From the NCBI GenBank assembly GCA_021798915.1, contig JAJZBM010000005.1:62001-126000 (forward strand): DNA of 64,000 bases, written 5' to 3'. Each line of letters opens with the position of its first letter. Position 1 is the stretch's first letter. Below the pieces are notes generated by a model. That model ran no database searches. It had not been told where the DNA came from and was given only the letters and a program-made list of their open reading frames with translations. This DNA comes from Pseudomonadota bacterium (GTDB lineage: Bacteria > Pseudomonadota > Alphaproteobacteria > Acetobacterales > Acetobacteraceae). Below are positions 4,530 to 11,625 of the stretch, in pieces. Both the position numbers and the translations under genes were made by a program.

Positions 4530-5330
4530 TCACTTCATCGCGGCAGGGGCTGGCGTTGCGGGTAACCCTTTCGTGTCCCGCAAATCGGCGCTGTCGAAAT
4601 TGGCGCCGCCGGTCTTTGCTCCGGTGAAATCGGCGCCGCGCAGATAGGCTCCGGTGAAATCGGCCCCGGTGAGATCGGCGCCGGCGAAGGTGGCGCCGTC
4701 GAGCCGGGCGAAGCGAAGCAGGACATGGGCAAGCCCGGTGCCGGTGAAATTCGCGCCCCGCAAATCGGCGCTGGCGAATTCGGTGCGCAACAAACCCATG
4801 GACTGGTTGTGCATATCGGCGCTCATCAGGGCGTGGCTGAAATTGGCGCCGGCCATGTCATCGAAGCTGAAATGCACCGTCATCGTGGCGCCGGAGAGAT
4901 CAGCGCCGACGAAATTGGCTGCTTCCGCGCGGCTGTTATCCATCGCCGTCGAGGTCACCATGGTCTGCAACGTCGCGCCATGAAGATTGGCATGGTTAAA
5001 ATTGGCGCGGATGATCCAGGCGAAGGTAAGATCGGCTCCGGCGAGATCGGCCCCGGTGAGATCGGCGCCGACCAGCTTGACCCCGTGCAGATTGGCGCGG
5101 GCAAGTTTGGCGCCATGGAGATCGGCACCGGAAAAATCGAGCCCGGTCAGATCATCGCCCGCCATATCCCGCCCGGCGAGGCGGAGCTTGCCGCCGACCG
5201 GCGTCGCCGCGACCAGCGCCCGCACCTCCGCGCCGGTCAAATGGCTCTGCGCGAAACCGCCGTCGGAGAAGGGCATGAACACCGCGAGCCAGAGCGGAAA
5301 CCAGCAGGATCTACTTGCAAGTGAGCGCAT
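4530..5330 (-). CDS. Exported pentapeptide-repeat protein
   Basis: After a probable signal peptide (MRSLASRSCWFPLWLAVFM, cleavage near GFAQ) the protein is almost entirely pentapeptide repeats of the A(D/N)LxG type, for example GADLTGADLAGADL and RGADFTGAKTGGANF. Such repeats fold into a right-handed quadrilateral beta-helix. The function is unknown; a periplasmic scaffold or binding surface is an inference. The start at 5330 was chosen because AAGGA lies 6 bases upstream and it leaves a compact signal peptide; two in-frame ATGs lie further upstream. It lies 88 bp after the small YgaP-like gene and may belong to the sulfide-oxidation transcript. Confidence 0.8.
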   Translation of the reverse strand: MRSLASRSCWFPLWLAVFMPFSDGGFAQSHLTGAEVRALVAATPVGGKLRLAGRDMAGDDLTGLDFSGADLHGAKLARANLHGVKLVGADLTGADLAGADLTFAWIIRANFNHANLHGATLQTMVTSTAMDNSRAEAANFVGADLSGATMTVHFSFDDMAGANFSHALMSADMHNQSMGLLRTEFASADLRGANFTGTGLAHVLLRFARLDGATFAGADLTGADFTGAYLRGADFTGAKTGGANFDSADLRDTKGLPATPAPAAMK

Positions 5331-5418
5331 GACCATTCCTTTTCCCATGCGGTGGTGGAGGATAGCGGGCCGGGGATTTCTCATCCCCGGCCATGCGCGA
5401 CGGCTGCGAGAACCGGCG

Positions 5419-5622
5419 TCATTCGAAGGCGCAACCGGCTTTGAAACCGAGCACGCGGAAGAACGCCGCCGCCGGGCAGAAACCGGTGAAGCTCGATTGC
5501 AGCAGGTTGAGGCCGATGAAGACAGTAAACAAGAGGAAATACTGGCTGACGAAATAGGTCAGCGCGACGCTGAGCAGAACCATGAGGCCGGCAAAGCGGA
5601 ACACGGCGCGATCAATCGACAT
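5419..5622 (-). CDS. Small YgaP-like membrane protein (DUF2892)
   Basis: The 67-residue protein has two hydrophobic stretches (FAGLMVLLSVALTYFVSQYFLLF and FIGLNLLQSS) and the TGFCPAAAFFRVLGF signature of the DUF2892/YgaP transmembrane family. This domain is often found next to rhodanese, persulfide dioxygenase or sulfide:quinone oxidoreductase genes. It starts 24 bp after the sqr stop with a clear AGGAG ribosome site, so it is very likely co-transcribed with sqr. The Cys in GFCPA is typical of the family. It could help handle sulfane sulfur at the membrane; that role is inferred. Confidence 0.85.
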   Translation of the reverse strand: MSIDRAVFRFAGLMVLLSVALTYFVSQYFLLFTVFIGLNLLQSSFTGFCPAAAFFRVLGFKAGCAFE

Positions 5623-5646: not shown

Positions 5647-6924
5647 TCAGGCTTTTTCCTTGAGCTTGTGAAGGTCGAGCTGCTTGAGCAGGAAGCGCTC
5701 GTAAAACGGCTCGCTAGTGCCACCGCGCATCTTGCGGAGGAAATATTTCTCGAAACCGACTTTCGCGAGATGCACCCAGGTTCCCTTGGCCGCCCAATTG
5801 GTGTTGCGCGGCGGGATCTGCGGCTTGGCGACGAAGGCGACGCCGCCATCACCGAAATCGGCAAGGCAAATCGCATTCCACGTCGCCCGCGCCGAAGGCT
5901 CGCGCCCGCGCAGCAAGGCGCCGATGTTTTCCGCCGTCGCGGTCACCATCGATTCGATCATGAACCCGGTTTTCGGAACCCCGACCGCAACCGGCGTCGG
6001 GCCGGTCGGCGGAATCGCGACGCAAACCCCGATCCCGAACACGTTGCGGAAGGTCGGGTTGCGCTGATGCTCGTCGATCAGCACGAAGCCGCGCGGATTG
6101 ACCAGTTTTTCGACCCCGCGCAGTGCCGGAACGCCGCGGAACGCCGGCAGCATCATCGAAAACTTGAACGGCAGATCGTGGGTTTTTTTGAGAGTTCCGT
6201 CCTCGCCGATCTCCTCGACATGCATCATGCCGACCTCGGCGGAGGCCATTTTGGCGTTGGTGATCCATTTGATGTGCCGGTCACGGAATTCGCTCTCCAG
6301 CAAGCCCTTGGTATCACCGACGCCATCGAGCCCGAGATGGCCGATATAGGGCTCGGCGGTGACGAAGGTCATCGGCACGCGATCGCGGATCTTGCGCTTG
6401 CGCAATTCGGTATCGAGAATCAGCGCGAACTCGTAGGCCGGCCCGTAGCACGACGCCCCCTGCACCGCGCCGACGATGATCGGCCCCGGGTTCTTGCAGA
6501 ACGCTTCGAAGGCGGCATAGGCACGCTCGGCGTGATCGACATGGCAGATCGATTGCGTCACACCGTCCGGCCCGAGGCCCGGGATCTCGTCGAAAGCGAG
6601 ATCGGGGCCGGTCGCGATCACCAGGTAATCATAGGCGAGCCGCGTCGTGTCGGTGAGTTCGAGTTCGTTGGCGGTCGGATCGATGCGCTTCGCGCCCTGA
6701 TCGATGAGCCGGATGTGCTTTTTCGCCATCACCGGCGCGAGGTCGATTTCGATGTCGCGGCGCTCGCGCCAGCCGACCGCGACCCACGGGTTGGAGGGCA
6801 CGAAATGGTAGTTCCGCCCCTGTCCGACCAGCGTGATGCGGTCCTCTTTGCGCAAATGCGGCAGCAATTCGAAGGCCATCAGCGTCCCGCCGAGCCCGGC
6901 GCCCAGAACCACGATCTCCGCCAT
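5647..6924 (-). CDS. sqr: Sulfide:quinone oxidoreductase, type I
   Basis: The 425-residue flavoprotein oxidises sulfide to sulfane sulfur and passes electrons to the quinone pool at the cytoplasmic face of the membrane. The N-terminal FAD fold is VVLGAGLGG. Three cysteines at 127 (SICHVDH), 159 (GASCYGPAYE) and 353 (AICLADFGD) match the spacing of the three catalytic cysteines known in type I enzymes. The quinone-site segment VPKTGFMIESMV is also present. The C-terminal region is amphipathic and should bind the membrane. An AAGGGGAA ribosome site precedes the start. It is transcribed away from the ArsR-type regulator, from a promoter overlapping the shared palindrome. Confidence 0.95.
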   Translation of the reverse strand: MAEIVVLGAGLGGTLMAFELLPHLRKEDRITLVGQGRNYHFVPSNPWVAVGWRERRDIEIDLAPVMAKKHIRLIDQGAKRIDPTANELELTDTTRLAYDYLVIATGPDLAFDEIPGLGPDGVTQSICHVDHAERAYAAFEAFCKNPGPIIVGAVQGASCYGPAYEFALILDTELRKRKIRDRVPMTFVTAEPYIGHLGLDGVGDTKGLLESEFRDRHIKWITNAKMASAEVGMMHVEEIGEDGTLKKTHDLPFKFSMMLPAFRGVPALRGVEKLVNPRGFVLIDEHQRNPTFRNVFGIGVCVAIPPTGPTPVAVGVPKTGFMIESMVTATAENIGALLRGREPSARATWNAICLADFGDGGVAFVAKPQIPPRNTNWAAKGTWVHLAKVGFEKYFLRKMRGGTSEPFYERFLLKQLDLHKLKEKA

Positions 6925-6951
6925 GACGTTCCCCTTTTTTCAAACCATGAT

Positions 6952-6985
6952 TTGACAATATATTCGTATCGTCGTATATACGCAA
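6952..6985. promoter_or_regulatory. Divergent sqr / sqrR promoters overlapping one operator
   Basis: On the plus strand TTGACA (6952-6957) and TATATA (6975-6980) are separated by 17 bp, an excellent sigma-70 promoter for the regulator gene. On the minus strand TTGCGT (6985-6980) and TATATT (6962-6957) are also separated by 17 bp and face sqr. Between and within them lies an imperfect palindrome, TATATTCG-N6-CGTATATA (6959-6980), with one mismatch between its 8-bp arms. This is AT-rich DNA in a GC-rich genome. Binding of the ArsR/BigR-type dimer here would block both promoters at once. Confidence 0.8.
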
Positions 6986-7014
6986 GCACGAAAATAACGA
7001 GGGCGGGGAAAAGC

Positions 7015-7365
7015 GTGACGGCGGTAAACATCCAAGCCATGCACCGGGCGGCGGACCGCGCGAGCGAGCTTTTGAAGGCGCTGGCGAGCCGCCATCGTCT
7101 GCTCATTCTGTGCCATCTCGCCGAGGGACAATGCTCGGTCGGCGAACTCGCGAGCGCGCTCGCGCTTCGCGATTCGACGGTCTCGCAGCACCTCGCTTTG
7201 CTTCGCCGCGATGGCCTCGTTGCCGCCGAGCGCGACGGCCAGACGATCTGGTATTCGCTGGCGAGCGGTCCGGCGCGCGACGTGCTCGACACGCTGTTCG
7301 CCATATACTGCCCCCGTGACGCCGCACCAATGCCACGCGCAAAAGCCGCGCCGACCCGCTACTGA
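7015..7365 (+). CDS. sqrR: Persulfide-responsive ArsR-family repressor (SqrR/BigR type)
   Basis: The 116-residue winged-helix regulator has the ArsR recognition region SVGELASALALRDSTVSQHLALLRRDGLV. Cysteines at 33 (LILCHL) and 99 (AIYCP) are 66 residues apart. That is the spacing of the paired cysteines that sense per- and polysulfides in SqrR (41/107) and BigR (42/108). An extra Cys40 lies in GQCSV. The metal-site ELCVCDL motif of arsenic sensors is absent. The GTG at 7015 was chosen because GGGG lies just upstream; an ATG at 7039 is possible. It should repress sqr and its own transcript until sulfane sulfur accumulates, and the RND genes follow 40 bp downstream. Confidence 0.88.
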   Translation: MTAVNIQAMHRAADRASELLKALASRHRLLILCHLAEGQCSVGELASALALRDSTVSQHLALLRRDGLVAAERDGQTIWYSLASGPARDVLDTLFAIYCPRDAAPMPRAKAAPTRY

Positions 7366-7405: not shown

Positions 7406-8395
7406 ATGCGAAATCTTCTCCTGCTGGCCCTCGGACTTCCTGGATTCGTCACCCCGGCTTGGGCGGCGGAGGAGTTTACCGTCCAATCCTCGCATCTTAC
7501 GGACGAGAAAGCGGTCTTCGCGACCGTCGAAAGCCGGGACGTGGTGCCGGCGCGCACACGCATCGGCGGCACCATCGCGAGCCTTACCGTGCGCGAGGGC
7601 GATGAGGTGCAGGAGCGGCAGGTGATCGGCGTGGTCGCCGACCAGAAGCTCGGTCTCCGCATCCAGGCGCTGGATGCCGAGATCAATGGCCTCAAATCCC
7701 AGCTCGCCCAGGCCGAGGTCGATCTCGGGCGCGCCCAGGCCTTGGCCAAAGGTGGCGCGGTGTCGCGCCAGCAGCTCGATCAGGCGGCGACGACGGCGCA
7801 GGTCGCGGCAAGCTCACTCAAGGCGCGCGAGGCGGAACGCGCGCTTGCCCAACAGCAACTCGAGGAAGGACGGATCGAGGCGCCGACCAGCGGCCGCGTG
7901 CTCGCCGTGCCGCTCACCATCGGCTCGGTGGTGATGCCCGGCGATGCGGTGGCGACCGTCGCCGCCAAGGATTTCGTGCTTCGCCTCCACGTGCCCGAAC
8001 GCGCGACCGGCTTTCTCAAGACGGGTGAGACGGTGCGGGTCGATGGCCGTGATCTCGGTGTCGCCGGCGCCCAATTCGGCACCGTGACCCTGATCTATCC
8101 GCGCATCGAGGATGGCAACGTCGTCGCCGATGCCGATCTCAAAGGTCTCGGCGATTATTTCGTTGGCCAGCGCATCGAGGTTTGGATTCCGGCCGGTGAA
8201 CGCCACAGCTTCGTCATCCCGAGCCATCTGATCGAAACCCGTTTCGGCCTCGATTACGTCCATCGCCGCTCGCCCGACGGCGCCATCGAGACGATCCCGA
8301 TTCAGCGCGGGCGGGATTTTCCGACCAAGGCCATGCCCGATGGGATCGAGATTCTTTCCGGCCTCAACGCCGGCGACGTTCTGGTGTCACGATGA
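7406..8395 (+). CDS. RND efflux periplasmic adaptor (membrane fusion protein)
   Basis: The 329-residue protein has a signal peptide ending AWA (residue 20). A split biotinyl-lipoyl-like barrel follows (RIGGTIASLTVREGDEV and EAPTSGRVLAVPLTIGSVV) around an alpha-helical hairpin with Ala/Gln heptads. A beta-barrel comes next. It links the inner-membrane RND pump to an outer-membrane channel; no channel gene is present nearby. It starts 40 bp after the persulfide sensor gene and its stop overlaps the pump start by 4 bp (ATGA). Co-transcription with the regulator is therefore likely. Confidence 0.88.
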   Translation: MRNLLLLALGLPGFVTPAWAAEEFTVQSSHLTDEKAVFATVESRDVVPARTRIGGTIASLTVREGDEVQERQVIGVVADQKLGLRIQALDAEINGLKSQLAQAEVDLGRAQALAKGGAVSRQQLDQAATTAQVAASSLKAREAERALAQQQLEEGRIEAPTSGRVLAVPLTIGSVVMPGDAVATVAAKDFVLRLHVPERATGFLKTGETVRVDGRDLGVAGAQFGTVTLIYPRIEDGNVVADADLKGLGDYFVGQRIEVWIPAGERHSFVIPSHLIETRFGLDYVHRRSPDGAIETIPIQRGRDFPTKAMPDGIEILSGLNAGDVLVSR

Positions 8396-11300
8396 CCCTC
8401 GGCTTTTCCGGACGGCTTGCGCAAGCGACGATCCGCTCGCCGCTGACGCCGCTTTTTCTCCTCGCCGCCCTCGCCGCCGGCCTGATCGCGCTTCTCACCA
8501 TCCCGCGCGAGGAAGACCCGCAAATCCATGTCCCGATGGTCGATATTATGGTCACGGCGAATGGTCTGGCCGCCGCCGACGTCGTCGAGCTGGTGACCAA
8601 GCCGCTCGAGACCATCGTCAAGGCGATCCCCGGCGTCGAACATGTCTATAGTCAGAGCCTCGATGATCGCGTCGTGGTGACGGCGCGTTTCGTCGTCGGC
8701 ACGGGCGAAGATGACGCCGTGCTCCGGGTCAATGACAAAATCCGTGCCAATCTCGACCGCATTCCGATCGGCATTCCCCAGCCGATGATCGTCGGGCGCG
8801 GGATCAACGATGTCGGCATCGTCGTGCTGACGCTGTCGCCACGGCCGGCGGCGGCGGGGCGCTGGCGTCAGGCCGATCTCTCGCAACTCGCGAGCAAGCT
8901 GCAATCGGAACTGATCAAGGTCGATGATGTCGGGCTTAGCTACATCGCCGGCAGCGATCCAGAGGAGATCCGCGTCGAGCCCGATCCTGAAAAGCTCTCG
9001 CTCTATGGCGTCACATTGCAGCAGCTTCTGGCCAAGGTGCGTGACGCCAACCGTTCTTTCGTCGCCGGCATGGTACGCGAAGGCGGCCAGATGAATACCG
9101 TCACCGCCGGGCAGACGCTGTTTGGCATTCCCGATATCGGCCTGTTGCTGATCACCACGCGCGACGGCCGCCCGGTCTATGTGCGCGATCTCGCGCGGAT
9201 CGTGGTCGGTGGTGCGGTGGTCGAAAACCATGTTTTCAACCTCGCGCCCAATGGACATGAGGGCGGGCATGCCGGCGGACAAGACGGATGGCACGAGACC
9301 CCGGCGGTCAGCCTCGCGCTCGCCAAACGTTCCGGCGCCAATGCGGTGGTGGTTGCGAACGCCATCGTCGCGCGCGTCAAAACCCTCGAAGGGCAGCTCA
9401 TTCCACCCGACATCCAGGTCGAGGTGACGCGGAATTATGGTGATACCGCGAATGAGAAAGCCAATGAACTATTGTTTCATCTCGGCCTCGCGACGGTTTC
9501 GATCGTCGTTCTGATCGCGTTCGCGATCGGCTGGCGCGAAGGGGTGGTGACGCTGGTGGTGATCCCGACCACCATTCTGCTGACCTTGTTCGCCGCCGAG
9601 ATGATGGGCTACACGATCAACCGCGTCTCGCTGTTCGCACTGATTTTCTCGATCGGCATTCTCGTCGATGATGCGATCGTCGTGGTCGAGAACATCGCGC
9701 GCCACTGGGCGATGGCCGATGGCCGACCGCGCATTCAGGCGGCGATCGAGGGGGTCGCCGAGGTCGGCAACCCGACCGTGGTTGCAACCTTGACGGTGAT
9801 CACAGCACTTTTGCCGATGCTGTTCGTCTCCGGCCTGATGGGGCCTTACATGGCGCCGATCCCGGCCAATGCCTCGGCGGCGATGCTGTTCTCCTTCTTC
9901 ATCGCCATGGTGATCGCGCCCTGGCTGATGCTCAAGCTCTCACCCGAGCGCAAAGGGCGGAAAGCGAACCATCACTCGGCGCATGCGCATGGCGAGGATC
10001 GGCTCGGCAGGCTCTATCGCCGCGTCGCCGGACCGCTGATCCGCTCGCGCCGGCTGTCATTGATCTTTCTGCTGCTGGTCGGTGCTGCGACGCTCGCGGT
10101 GTGCGTTCTCTTTTATACCGAGAACGTGACCGTGAAGCTCCTGCCGTTCGACAATAAATCCGAACTCTCGGTGCTGCTCGATCTTCCCGCCGGCGCCAGC
10201 CTCGAAGAGACCGAGCGGCGTCTGTTCGCCGCCGCCCGCATCGTCGAAACCTTGCCGGAAGTGCGCTCCATCCAGCTCTACGCCGGAACCCCGGAGCCGT
10301 TCGATTTCAACGGTCTGGTCCGCCATTATTATGCCCGCGAAAATCCCTGGCTCGGCGATTTGCATATCGTCCTCGCGCCCAAGGCCGAACGCAAGCGGCC
10401 GAGCCACACGATAGCACTCGATCTCCGGCGCAAACTCGCGCAGCTGGCGCTGCCATCGGGCGCGGTCTTGAAAGTGGTCGAAATGCCGCCCGGGCCGCCG
10501 GTACTCGCGACCCTGCTTGCCGAAATCTATGGCCCCGATGCCGCAACCCGCCGCGATGTCGCCGAAGAGGTCAAGAAAATCTTCAAATCCGTGCCATTCA
10601 TCGTCGATGTAGACGATTCCTACGGCCATCGCGAACCGCGTCTCCATATCGCCATCGATCAGCCGGAGATCGATTATTTCCGTGTCAACCAGAGCGACGT
10701 CTACGACACCATCCAGGCGTTGTTCGGCGGCTTGCCGGTCGGCTACTCCTATCGCGGCGCGGAGCGGCTGCCGATCGAAATCGCGATCGGCCTGCCCAAA
10801 CGCGATCTGAGCTGGAACGAAAGGCTGGCGGCGACGCCGGTTCCGGCCAATACCCTGCCCGGCGCGCGCGGCGTCGTCGAACTCGGCCAACTGGTCAGCG
10901 TCACCCGCGAACGCGGCTCACGGACGATTTTCCGCCGCGACGGCCATACCGCCGCTATGGTGACCGGGGAACTCGCCGGTGATTTCGAGGCGCCGATCTA
11001 CGGTATGCTCGCAGTCGACAAGCTGATCGCCGCCCATGATTGGGGGAAACTCCCGAAACCGACGGTGAGCTTTCGCGGCCAGCCGGAAAACGAGGCGACG
11101 CCGAGCCTGCTCTGGGATGGCGAGTGGGAGATCACCTATGTCACCTTCCGCGACATGGGGGCGGCCTTCATGGTCGCCATTCTCGGGATTTACATTCTCG
11201 TCGTCGCGCAGTTTCAGAGTTTCAAGATTCCGCTGATGATTCTGACGCCGATTCCGCTCACCCTGATCGGCATCATGCTCGGCCATTGGCTGCTGGCCGC

Positions 11301-11625
11301 CCCCTTCACCGCGACCTCGATGATCGGCTTCATCGCCCTCGCCGGCATCATCGTGCGCAATTCCATCCTGCTGGTTGACTTCATCCGCCATGGCCGCGGC
11401 GAGAAGCCGCTGCGCGAGGTGCTGATCGATGCCGGCGCCATCCGCTTCAAGCCGATCTTGCTGACCGCGCTCTCGGCGATGATCGGTGCTGCGACCATTC
11501 TTCCCGATCCGATCTTCCAGGGCCTCGCGATCTCGCTTCTATTCGGCCTCGCCTCCTCGACACTGCTCACCGTTCTGGTGATCCCGGCGATTTATGTCGT
11601 GCTGCGCGATCCGCTCGGGCGTTGA
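8392..11625 (+). CDS. RND-family efflux pump, inner-membrane subunit
   Basis: At 1077 residues this is a full-length AcrB/CzcA-superfamily transporter. It has the N-terminal membrane helix, two large periplasmic loops, and two bundles of helices (for example LGLATVSIVVLIAFAIGW and YILVVAQFQSFKIPLMIL). Helix 4 carries two acidic residues in GILVDDAIVVVENI, as needed for proton relay. An early REEDPQIHVPMV segment resembles pumps of the MMPL/HAE-like alphaproteobacterial subgroup rather than classical drug pumps. It is translationally coupled to the adaptor. The substrate is unknown; its position behind a persulfide sensor suggests export of something made or needed under sulfide stress. Confidence 0.92.
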   Translation: MTLGFSGRLAQATIRSPLTPLFLLAALAAGLIALLTIPREEDPQIHVPMVDIMVTANGLAAADVVELVTKPLETIVKAIPGVEHVYSQSLDDRVVVTARFVVGTGEDDAVLRVNDKIRANLDRIPIGIPQPMIVGRGINDVGIVVLTLSPRPAAAGRWRQADLSQLASKLQSELIKVDDVGLSYIAGSDPEEIRVEPDPEKLSLYGVTLQQLLAKVRDANRSFVAGMVREGGQMNTVTAGQTLFGIPDIGLLLITTRDGRPVYVRDLARIVVGGAVVENHVFNLAPNGHEGGHAGGQDGWHETPAVSLALAKRSGANAVVVANAIVARVKTLEGQLIPPDIQVEVTRNYGDTANEKANELLFHLGLATVSIVVLIAFAIGWREGVVTLVVIPTTILLTLFAAEMMGYTINRVSLFALIFSIGILVDDAIVVVENIARHWAMADGRPRIQAAIEGVAEVGNPTVVATLTVITALLPMLFVSGLMGPYMAPIPANASAAMLFSFFIAMVIAPWLMLKLSPERKGRKANHHSAHAHGEDRLGRLYRRVAGPLIRSRRLSLIFLLLVGAATLAVCVLFYTENVTVKLLPFDNKSELSVLLDLPAGASLEETERRLFAAARIVETLPEVRSIQLYAGTPEPFDFNGLVRHYYARENPWLGDLHIVLAPKAERKRPSHTIALDLRRKLAQLALPSGAVLKVVEMPPGPPVLATLLAEIYGPDAATRRDVAEEVKKIFKSVPFIVDVDDSYGHREPRLHIAIDQPEIDYFRVNQSDVYDTIQALFGGLPVGYSYRGAERLPIEIAIGLPKRDLSWNERLAATPVPANTLPGARGVVELGQLVSVTRERGSRTIFRRDGHTAAMVTGELAGDFEAPIYGMLAVDKLIAAHDWGKLPKPTVSFRGQPENEATPSLLWDGEWEITYVTFRDMGAAFMVAILGIYILVVAQFQSFKIPLMILTPIPLTLIGIMLGHWLLAAPFTATSMIGFIALAGIIVRNSILLVDFIRHGRGEKPLREVLIDAGAIRFKPILLTALSAMIGAATILPDPIFQGLAISLLFGLASSTLLTVLVIPAIYVVLRDPLGR

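Follow-up and report, generated by a model that had tools for sequence, protein, structure and literature searches.

The locus and its genes

The window (the whole stretch of 64,000 nucleotides that was analysed) contains a sulfide oxidation gene and a regulator gene that point away from each other across an intergenic gap of 90 bp. The genes on either side are listed below, with the supporting matches in brackets.

5419..5622, minus strand: gene for a YgaP-like transmembrane protein, behind sqr (PF11127, 42.1 bits, cut-off 25.3)
5647..6924, minus strand: gene for a sulfide:quinone oxidoreductase, sqr (best PDB match 3sz0, E 8.4e-148)
6930-6934, minus strand: Shine-Dalgarno-like GGGGA of sqr (sequence)
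7015..7365, plus strand: gene for an ArsR-family regulator related to HlyU, SqrR and BigR, with Cys33 and Cys99 (profile and PDB matches)
7406..8395, plus strand: gene for an RND periplasmic adaptor (TIGR01730, 122.3 bits, cut-off 94.9)
8392..11625, plus strand: gene for an RND permease (PF00873, 458.1 bits)

The YgaP-like gene is presumably co-transcribed with sqr, and a pentapeptide-repeat protein is encoded downstream of this pair (4530-5384).

The regulator has the ArsR winged helix-turn-helix (PF01022, 46.1 bits, cut-off 22; NF033788, 86.6 bits, cut-off 55). Its top PDB matches are HlyU 4k2e (1.4e-22) and, at 1.3e-20, the chain group of 6o8l, named as Rhodobacter capsulatus SqrR in PMC8879271. 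Cys33 and Cys99 align with cysteines of both structures, and each is a cysteine in 82 of 83 regulator rows, the window's own included, the remaining row being a gap. Against the NCBIfam BigR equivalog NF040642 the protein scores 77.6 bits, below the cut-off of 155, and we have therefore not filed it as BigR. The paired cysteines of such ArsR repressors sense persulfides, according to the excerpts available of PMC10509353 and PMC10451225. An earlier sequence-only reading of this DNA had called the 7015-7365 protein a persulfide sensor; what the matches support is membership of the ArsR family, kinship with HlyU and SqrR and the pair of cysteines, and persulfide sensing itself is predicted from these features.

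Two probable antiparallel promoters in 34 bp

Two promoter-like sequences lie in the gap, one on each strand. Their hexamers are read from the sequence and from the column comparison described below, and the transcription starts are predicted from the −10 spacing, for which the excerpts of PMC12825309 give an optimum of 7 bp.

6952..6957, plus strand: −35 hexamer TTGACA of the regulator/pump promoter
6975..6980, plus strand: −10 hexamer TATATA of the regulator/pump promoter, after a 17-bp spacer
6987..6988, plus strand: predicted transcription start of the regulator-MFP-RND transcript
6980..6985, minus strand (read 6985-6980): −35 hexamer TTGCGT of the sqr promoter
6957..6962, minus strand (read 6962-6957): −10 hexamer TATATT of the sqr promoter, after a 17-bp spacer
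6949..6950, minus strand: predicted transcription start of the sqr-ygaP transcript

The sequence-only reading had placed two opposed promoters with 17-bp spacers in the same 34 bp, together with an embedded palindrome, TATATTCG-N6-CGTATATA. The hexamers and spacers are found exactly, and the palindrome is present with seven of its eight pairs complementary. This is the top same-register antiparallel promoter pair of the 64-kb window, with 10/12 matches on the plus strand and 8/12 on the minus strand, and it is the only one there to score at least 10 and at least 8 in either order. By chance, a total of at least 18 with both scores at least 8 arose in 13 of 20,000 first-order Markov copies of 6925-7014. 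The minus −35 hexamer is weak, matching the consensus at three of six positions.

A generic promoter scanner, whose rules need a T at position 6 of the −10 and 9/12 matches, missed the 6952 pair. The scanner's alternative plus-strand promoter, TTTTCA 6937-N16-TATATT 6959-6964, was rejected because its −35 is not conserved: that position averages 1.45 of six matches to TTGACA over 83 related sites and reaches four or more matches in 4 of the 83.

Conservation among relatives

The regulator was sought in overlapping sets of 6 genomes of the genus, 299 of the family, 385 of the class and 395 of the order, and in GTDB contigs (51 loci). From the matches, mainly the stronger of those listed, we sampled 172 loci, repeats included. 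A gene for sqr, ygaP or a dioxygenase-like protein lies divergent within 900 bp in 116 of the 172, and 56 are without such a partner. The 116 divergent loci, again with repeats, comprise 95 with a single element above the cut-off, 9 in which it is split and 12 with none. Reduced to distinct 46-mers, the 95 single elements give 83 fused sites, the window's own included, for which the nearest divergent partner is sqr in 58, ygaP in 20 and a dioxygenase in 5. Nine of the 12 loci with no site above threshold have a dioxygenase partner and three have ygaP; one of the nine (L143) carries a look-alike element displaced by one base.

We chose the thresholds ourselves (a site score of at least 25; promoter scores of at least 8 on plus and at least 7 on minus). 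Both promoter scores are reached in 61 of the 83 fused sites and not in 22. The apparent conservation of fused sites is inflated, because the matrix used to score them was built from these same loci and includes the promoter columns. In one site comparison, nine duplicate rows and five ambiguous ones (L018, L028, L099, L120, L126) were removed. The first three columns of TTGACA are T, T and G in 98, 96 and 94% of the fused sites; C6983 and A6985 of the minus −35 are present in 98-99%, and T6961 of the minus −10 in 100%. Judged by the tree labels, the families with fused sites are the window's own and at least eight others of the class.

A DNA pattern search of 398 genomes of the phylum gave six matches with at most two mismatches, the window being one, and all six adjoin sqr. 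With up to three mismatches it gave 17 genomes against 11 control matches for the reversed pattern, so that most matches at this level are background, although one three-mismatch match also adjoins sqr. Searched at up to three mismatches, the genome that the window comes from has one occurrence of the operator pattern.

The surroundings of the element vary. In five loci (L056, L130, L138, L142, L144) the gene that diverges from the regulator across the fused element is dioxygenase-like and not sqr. This label comes from a match to positions 141-423 of NCBIfam Blh, its dioxygenase part, at 368-408 bits in the three of the five loci that were tested, scores that fall below the two-domain model's cut-off of 625. 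L193 and L194 have sqr on one side of the element and, further off on the other, an adaptor/pump pair. No match to this regulator reaches E<=1e-6 there, and the gap may contain a diverged one. In L139 the long upstream gene, for a D-Ala-D-Ala carboxypeptidase, is codirectional and the element is kept all the same, an exception that counts against the mechanism proposed below. Behind the codirectional ribonucleotide reductase gene of L099 the minus promoter is poor (4/12), as expected, and the plus promoter is likewise poor (6/12).

Beside an intact regulator, L105 and L097 have a start-like MAEIVV/MAEVVV stretch with no full sqr match and L026 has sqr as two separate pieces; the gene looks broken or a remnant in all three. 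A divergent thioredoxin-like gene (WAPWCGPC) adjoins the element in L016 and L105, with ygaP beyond it, and similar DNA occurs in L015, L038 and L103. By eye, the sqr-side leaders of L086, L091, L025, L030 and L095 contain a TTGATCNNGATCAA-like box, which we take to resemble an FNR/FixK site and which may add an oxygen-linked input to sqr in these loci.

Split loci as a natural dissection

Eight split loci, in which each gene has a promoter region of its own, were counted (L009, L011, L012, L013, L023, L029, L110, L111); a further one, L119, repeats L012 and was excluded. Each yields one sqr-side and one regulator-side copy of the element, and the regulator-side copies of L012, L023 and L029 were placed by their ATG rather than by score. 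Promoters were scored in a fixed register as matches to TTGACA and TATAAT out of 12. The p-values that follow come from Mann-Whitney tests that treat rows as independent, ignoring relatedness, on copies of loci that also trained the matrix.

The fused sites average 8.45/12 on plus and 7.52/12 on minus. The eight sqr-side copies keep the minus promoter (7.75/12, p=0.46) and lose the plus promoter (4.0/12, p=6.7e-6), whereas the eight regulator-side copies keep plus (8.62/12, p=0.76) and lose minus (3.38/12, p=9.8e-7; p=7.7e-5 when restricted to the five copies found by the matrix). Scores of at least 8 on plus together with at least 7 on minus occur in none of the eight sqr-side copies and in none of the five matrix-found regulator-side copies. 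Single columns behave alike: the T, T and G of TTGACA are present in 8, 8 and 8 of 8 regulator-side copies and in 0, 1 and 3 of 8 sqr-side copies. Conversely, C6983 and A6985 are kept in 8/8 sqr-side copies but in 2/8 and 1/8 regulator-side copies, and T6961 in 8/8 against 1/8.

The split loci thus keep their own gene's hexamers and lose the other's, in agreement with the claim of two opposed promoters on one stretch around a common conserved element. This reciprocal pattern, the chief indication that both promoters are used, makes them very probably real. On a tree of 90 regulators (one of 91 was omitted as too short), five changes of the split label are needed, at least three of them forced by well-supported branches; this tree has few columns, many open forks and bootstrap values that have not settled.

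Extent and symmetry of the putative operator

The same comparison of split and fused columns, together with symmetry scores, outlines the putative operator.

6963..6992, no strand: putative operator region, T[T/G]CGTA-like half-sites about 8 bp apart
6971..6992, no strand: one candidate binding unit, family consensus TTCGTA-N10-TACGAA (dyad 6981.5), in the window GTCGTA-N10-CACGAA
6959..6980, no strand: the palindrome of the sequence-only reading, TATATTCG (6959-6966)-N6-CGTATATA (6973-6980), dyad 6969.5

Several bases are conserved where no promoter accounts for them. CG at 6973-74 is conserved on both sides of the split loci; A6976 and T6979 persist on the sqr side, where the plus promoter is absent, and CG 6981-82 and A6984 persist on the regulator side, where the minus promoter is absent. 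A6988 and the GAA of 6990-92 persist on the sqr side with no start codon there, in 8, 8, 8 and 7 of 8 copies. As these columns have neither a promoter nor a codon role, the conserved element extends to about 6992, and the stretch that a footprint should cover is widened to that point. The regulator side is uninformative about the right end, since its columns 6988-6990 are the start codon, which was also used to place three of its eight copies. Of the minus-strand hexamers, the −35 falls within the putative operator and the −10 outside it.

The apparent half-sites, recurring every 8 bp or so, produce four nested dyads, at 6969.5, 6973.5, 6977.5 and 6981.5. Tested for symmetry with arms of equal length, the four, spaced at 4 bp, reach similar scores, and which of them leads depends on arm length and class of site. 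With 8-bp arms, 6977.5 is best in the fused sites, the sqr-side copies and the five matrix-found regulator-side copies, and 6981.5 in all eight regulator-side copies; with 11-bp arms, the best is 6969.5 in the fused sites, 6973.5 on the sqr side and 6981.5 on the regulator side. Dyad 6969.5 has a z of 3.99 in 62 fused sites. With 11-bp arms it scores 4.02 in the 83 fused sites, 3.94 on the sqr side and 2.77 in the five matrix-found regulator-side copies, where it is the weakest of the four, and in all eight regulator-side copies it falls outside the best five.

The equal-pair comparison singles out no dyad, and we therefore keep all four as candidate registers of the operator. Replacing 6969.5 by 6981.5 was considered and dropped, as clipping to 6963-6992 had given 6969.5 seven pairs against eleven. 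A pair of tandem ATTC-N8-GAAT sites centred on 6969.5 and 6985.5 was also dropped, the consensus showing, by eye, little symmetry at 6985.5. The earlier proposal that TATATTCG-N6-CGTATATA is the operator is thus retained in part: it is the best fused-site dyad with 11-bp arms, but it is one of four that score alike and loses strength on the regulator side; its left arm shares bases with the minus −10, and the conserved non-promoter bases continue beyond it to 6992.

Start codon and predicted leaderless transcript

In 72 of the 83 fused sites, an in-frame open ATG, the regulator's start codon, stands at the 6988 position, eight bases past the last base of the −10, where transcription is expected to start with a 7-bp gap. 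With its ATG at the predicted transcription start, the regulator mRNA of these relatives would be leaderless. The window departs from this arrangement, as follows.

6988..6990, plus strand: ACG in place of the relatives' leaderless ATG, in frame with the regulator (sequence, row L001)

The window's regulator starts downstream at GTG 7015, which is preceded by AGGGCGGGGA (7000-7009). Among the six genus members, the in-frame ATG is kept only in L007.

Position 6989 is C in 10 of 16 copies that have no start codon there, a small and phylogenetically dependent count made up of five of eight sqr-side split copies and five of eight fused ones (C in L001, L003, L005, L017 and L024, not in L004, L010 and L108). 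Left out of it were L006, where the ATG is out of frame, and L154 and L163, which are shifted by one.

From these observations, we tentatively propose, at a little under even confidence, a 46-bp cassette shared by several alphaproteobacterial families. It would combine antiparallel promoters, a repeated-half-site operator and a mostly leaderless ATG, with TACGAA bent to TATGAA to supply that ATG, so that the repressor, once bound, would stop transcription both ways and cover the initiation codon; lineages would have split it repeatedly into separate promoters.

Relation to known systems

The core elements of both promoters lie on the same DNA, and the element is by that criterion a pair of overlapping divergent promoters. 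It resembles the bidirectional promoters of Escherichia coli (Warman et al. 2026, PMC12825309), as described in the excerpts available, in that two orientations of RNA polymerase would exclude each other and that a regulator and its target are often involved. Those promoters, however, have a common −10 and starts 10-23 bp apart, whereas here each promoter has its own −10 (6957-6962 and 6975-6980), placed over the −35 of the opposite one, and about 37-39 bp separate the predicted starts. A shared −10 was rejected on this spacing, which places the element with overlapping divergent promoters and not in the bidirectional class. The pLS20 switch, in the excerpts of PMC4207663, likewise uses overlapping divergent promoters but concerns plasmid conjugation genes and DNA looping.

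On the regulator's side, SqrR of R. capsulatus and YgaV of E. coli are ArsR-family sulfide-responsive regulators, and YgaV binds its own promoter over the region that polymerase recognises, similar to the proposal made here (excerpts of PMC9774250). Unlike the sites described there, the element of the window is common to two divergent promoters. An exact copy of ATTC-N8-GAAT, the motif deduced for SqrR, is absent from it, the nearest sequence being ATTC-N8-GTAT at 6962-6977. In H. denitrificans, the ArsR repressors SoxR and sHdrR respond to sulfane sulfur and bind a region flanked by divergent sulfur genes, where SoxR gives two shifted bands; their targets, by contrast, are sox and shdr genes, and superposed promoters are not mentioned in the excerpts of PMC10451225 and PMC12423496. 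A text search of PMC9995734 and PMC9143464 for motif words found none. Literature searches on overlapping divergent promoters with a single operator and on leaderless divergent autorepression in Alphaproteobacteria returned no papers, and the element was not found in the titles and abstract openings listed by other searches; we claim no wider absence.

Proposed mechanism and alternative explanations

We consider it likely that the locus holds a compact divergent control element in which one ArsR-regulated operator governs two superposed promoters. The reduced regulator would bind the repeated half-sites at about 6963-6992, covering the plus −10, the minus −35 and the predicted plus start and abutting the minus −10; through this coverage both the sqr-ygaP and the regulator-MFP-RND transcripts would be shut. 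Rising persulfides would bridge Cys33 and Cys99 with sulfur, release the regulator and derepress both directions. RNA polymerase would then load in one orientation at a time, since the promoters run antiparallel over the same 34 bp with each −10 on the other's −35. We infer binding, repression, the persulfide response, polymerase exclusion and the number of dimers from sequence. As the sequence-only reading proposed, the sqr and regulator/pump transcripts may also compete for polymerase; in E. coli, the excerpts of PMC12825309 describe five tested bidirectional promoters with basal activity too low for competition, which occurred after activation, so binding exclusion need not mean measurable competition.

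The lack of any regulatory coupling beyond the shared operator is the alternative that we take most seriously, and we regard it as possible but doubtful: the overlap would be due to a short gap or to inheritance. The window's gap of 90 bp fits this, as the gaps of the eight split loci are 101-310 bp. The distance to the partner gene speaks against the short gap, because in 11 of 63 shared sites with an sqr or dioxygenase partner the fused element is kept more than 100 bp (up to 222 bp) from the partner's start codon despite the room; inheritance is unaffected by this. Those 11 distant sites lend some weight to a further reading, unlikely in our view, that only the plus promoter is real, the minus hexamers arising incidentally from AT-rich repeats in the operator, with sqr transcribed from elsewhere. 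The three of six matches of TTGCGT, and its position inside the operator region, point the same way. The minus −10, however, is not within 6963-6992; sqr-side split copies keep it and regulator-side ones lose it, and C6983 and A6985 follow the same pattern.

Least probable, and by our estimate quite improbable, is that a different regulator binds the element and the linked ArsR protein does not. L193 and L194, with their element beside sqr and a pump, are the loci that favour it; against it, the element overlaps the start codon of the linked regulator in 72/83 sites and stays with the regulator when the partner is a dioxygenase (5/83).

If the preferred reading of one operator over two superposed promoters is true, the relatives hold ready-made split and fused versions of a single regulatory element. 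The effect of superposition on output ratio, noise and induction speed would then be testable with natural sequences.
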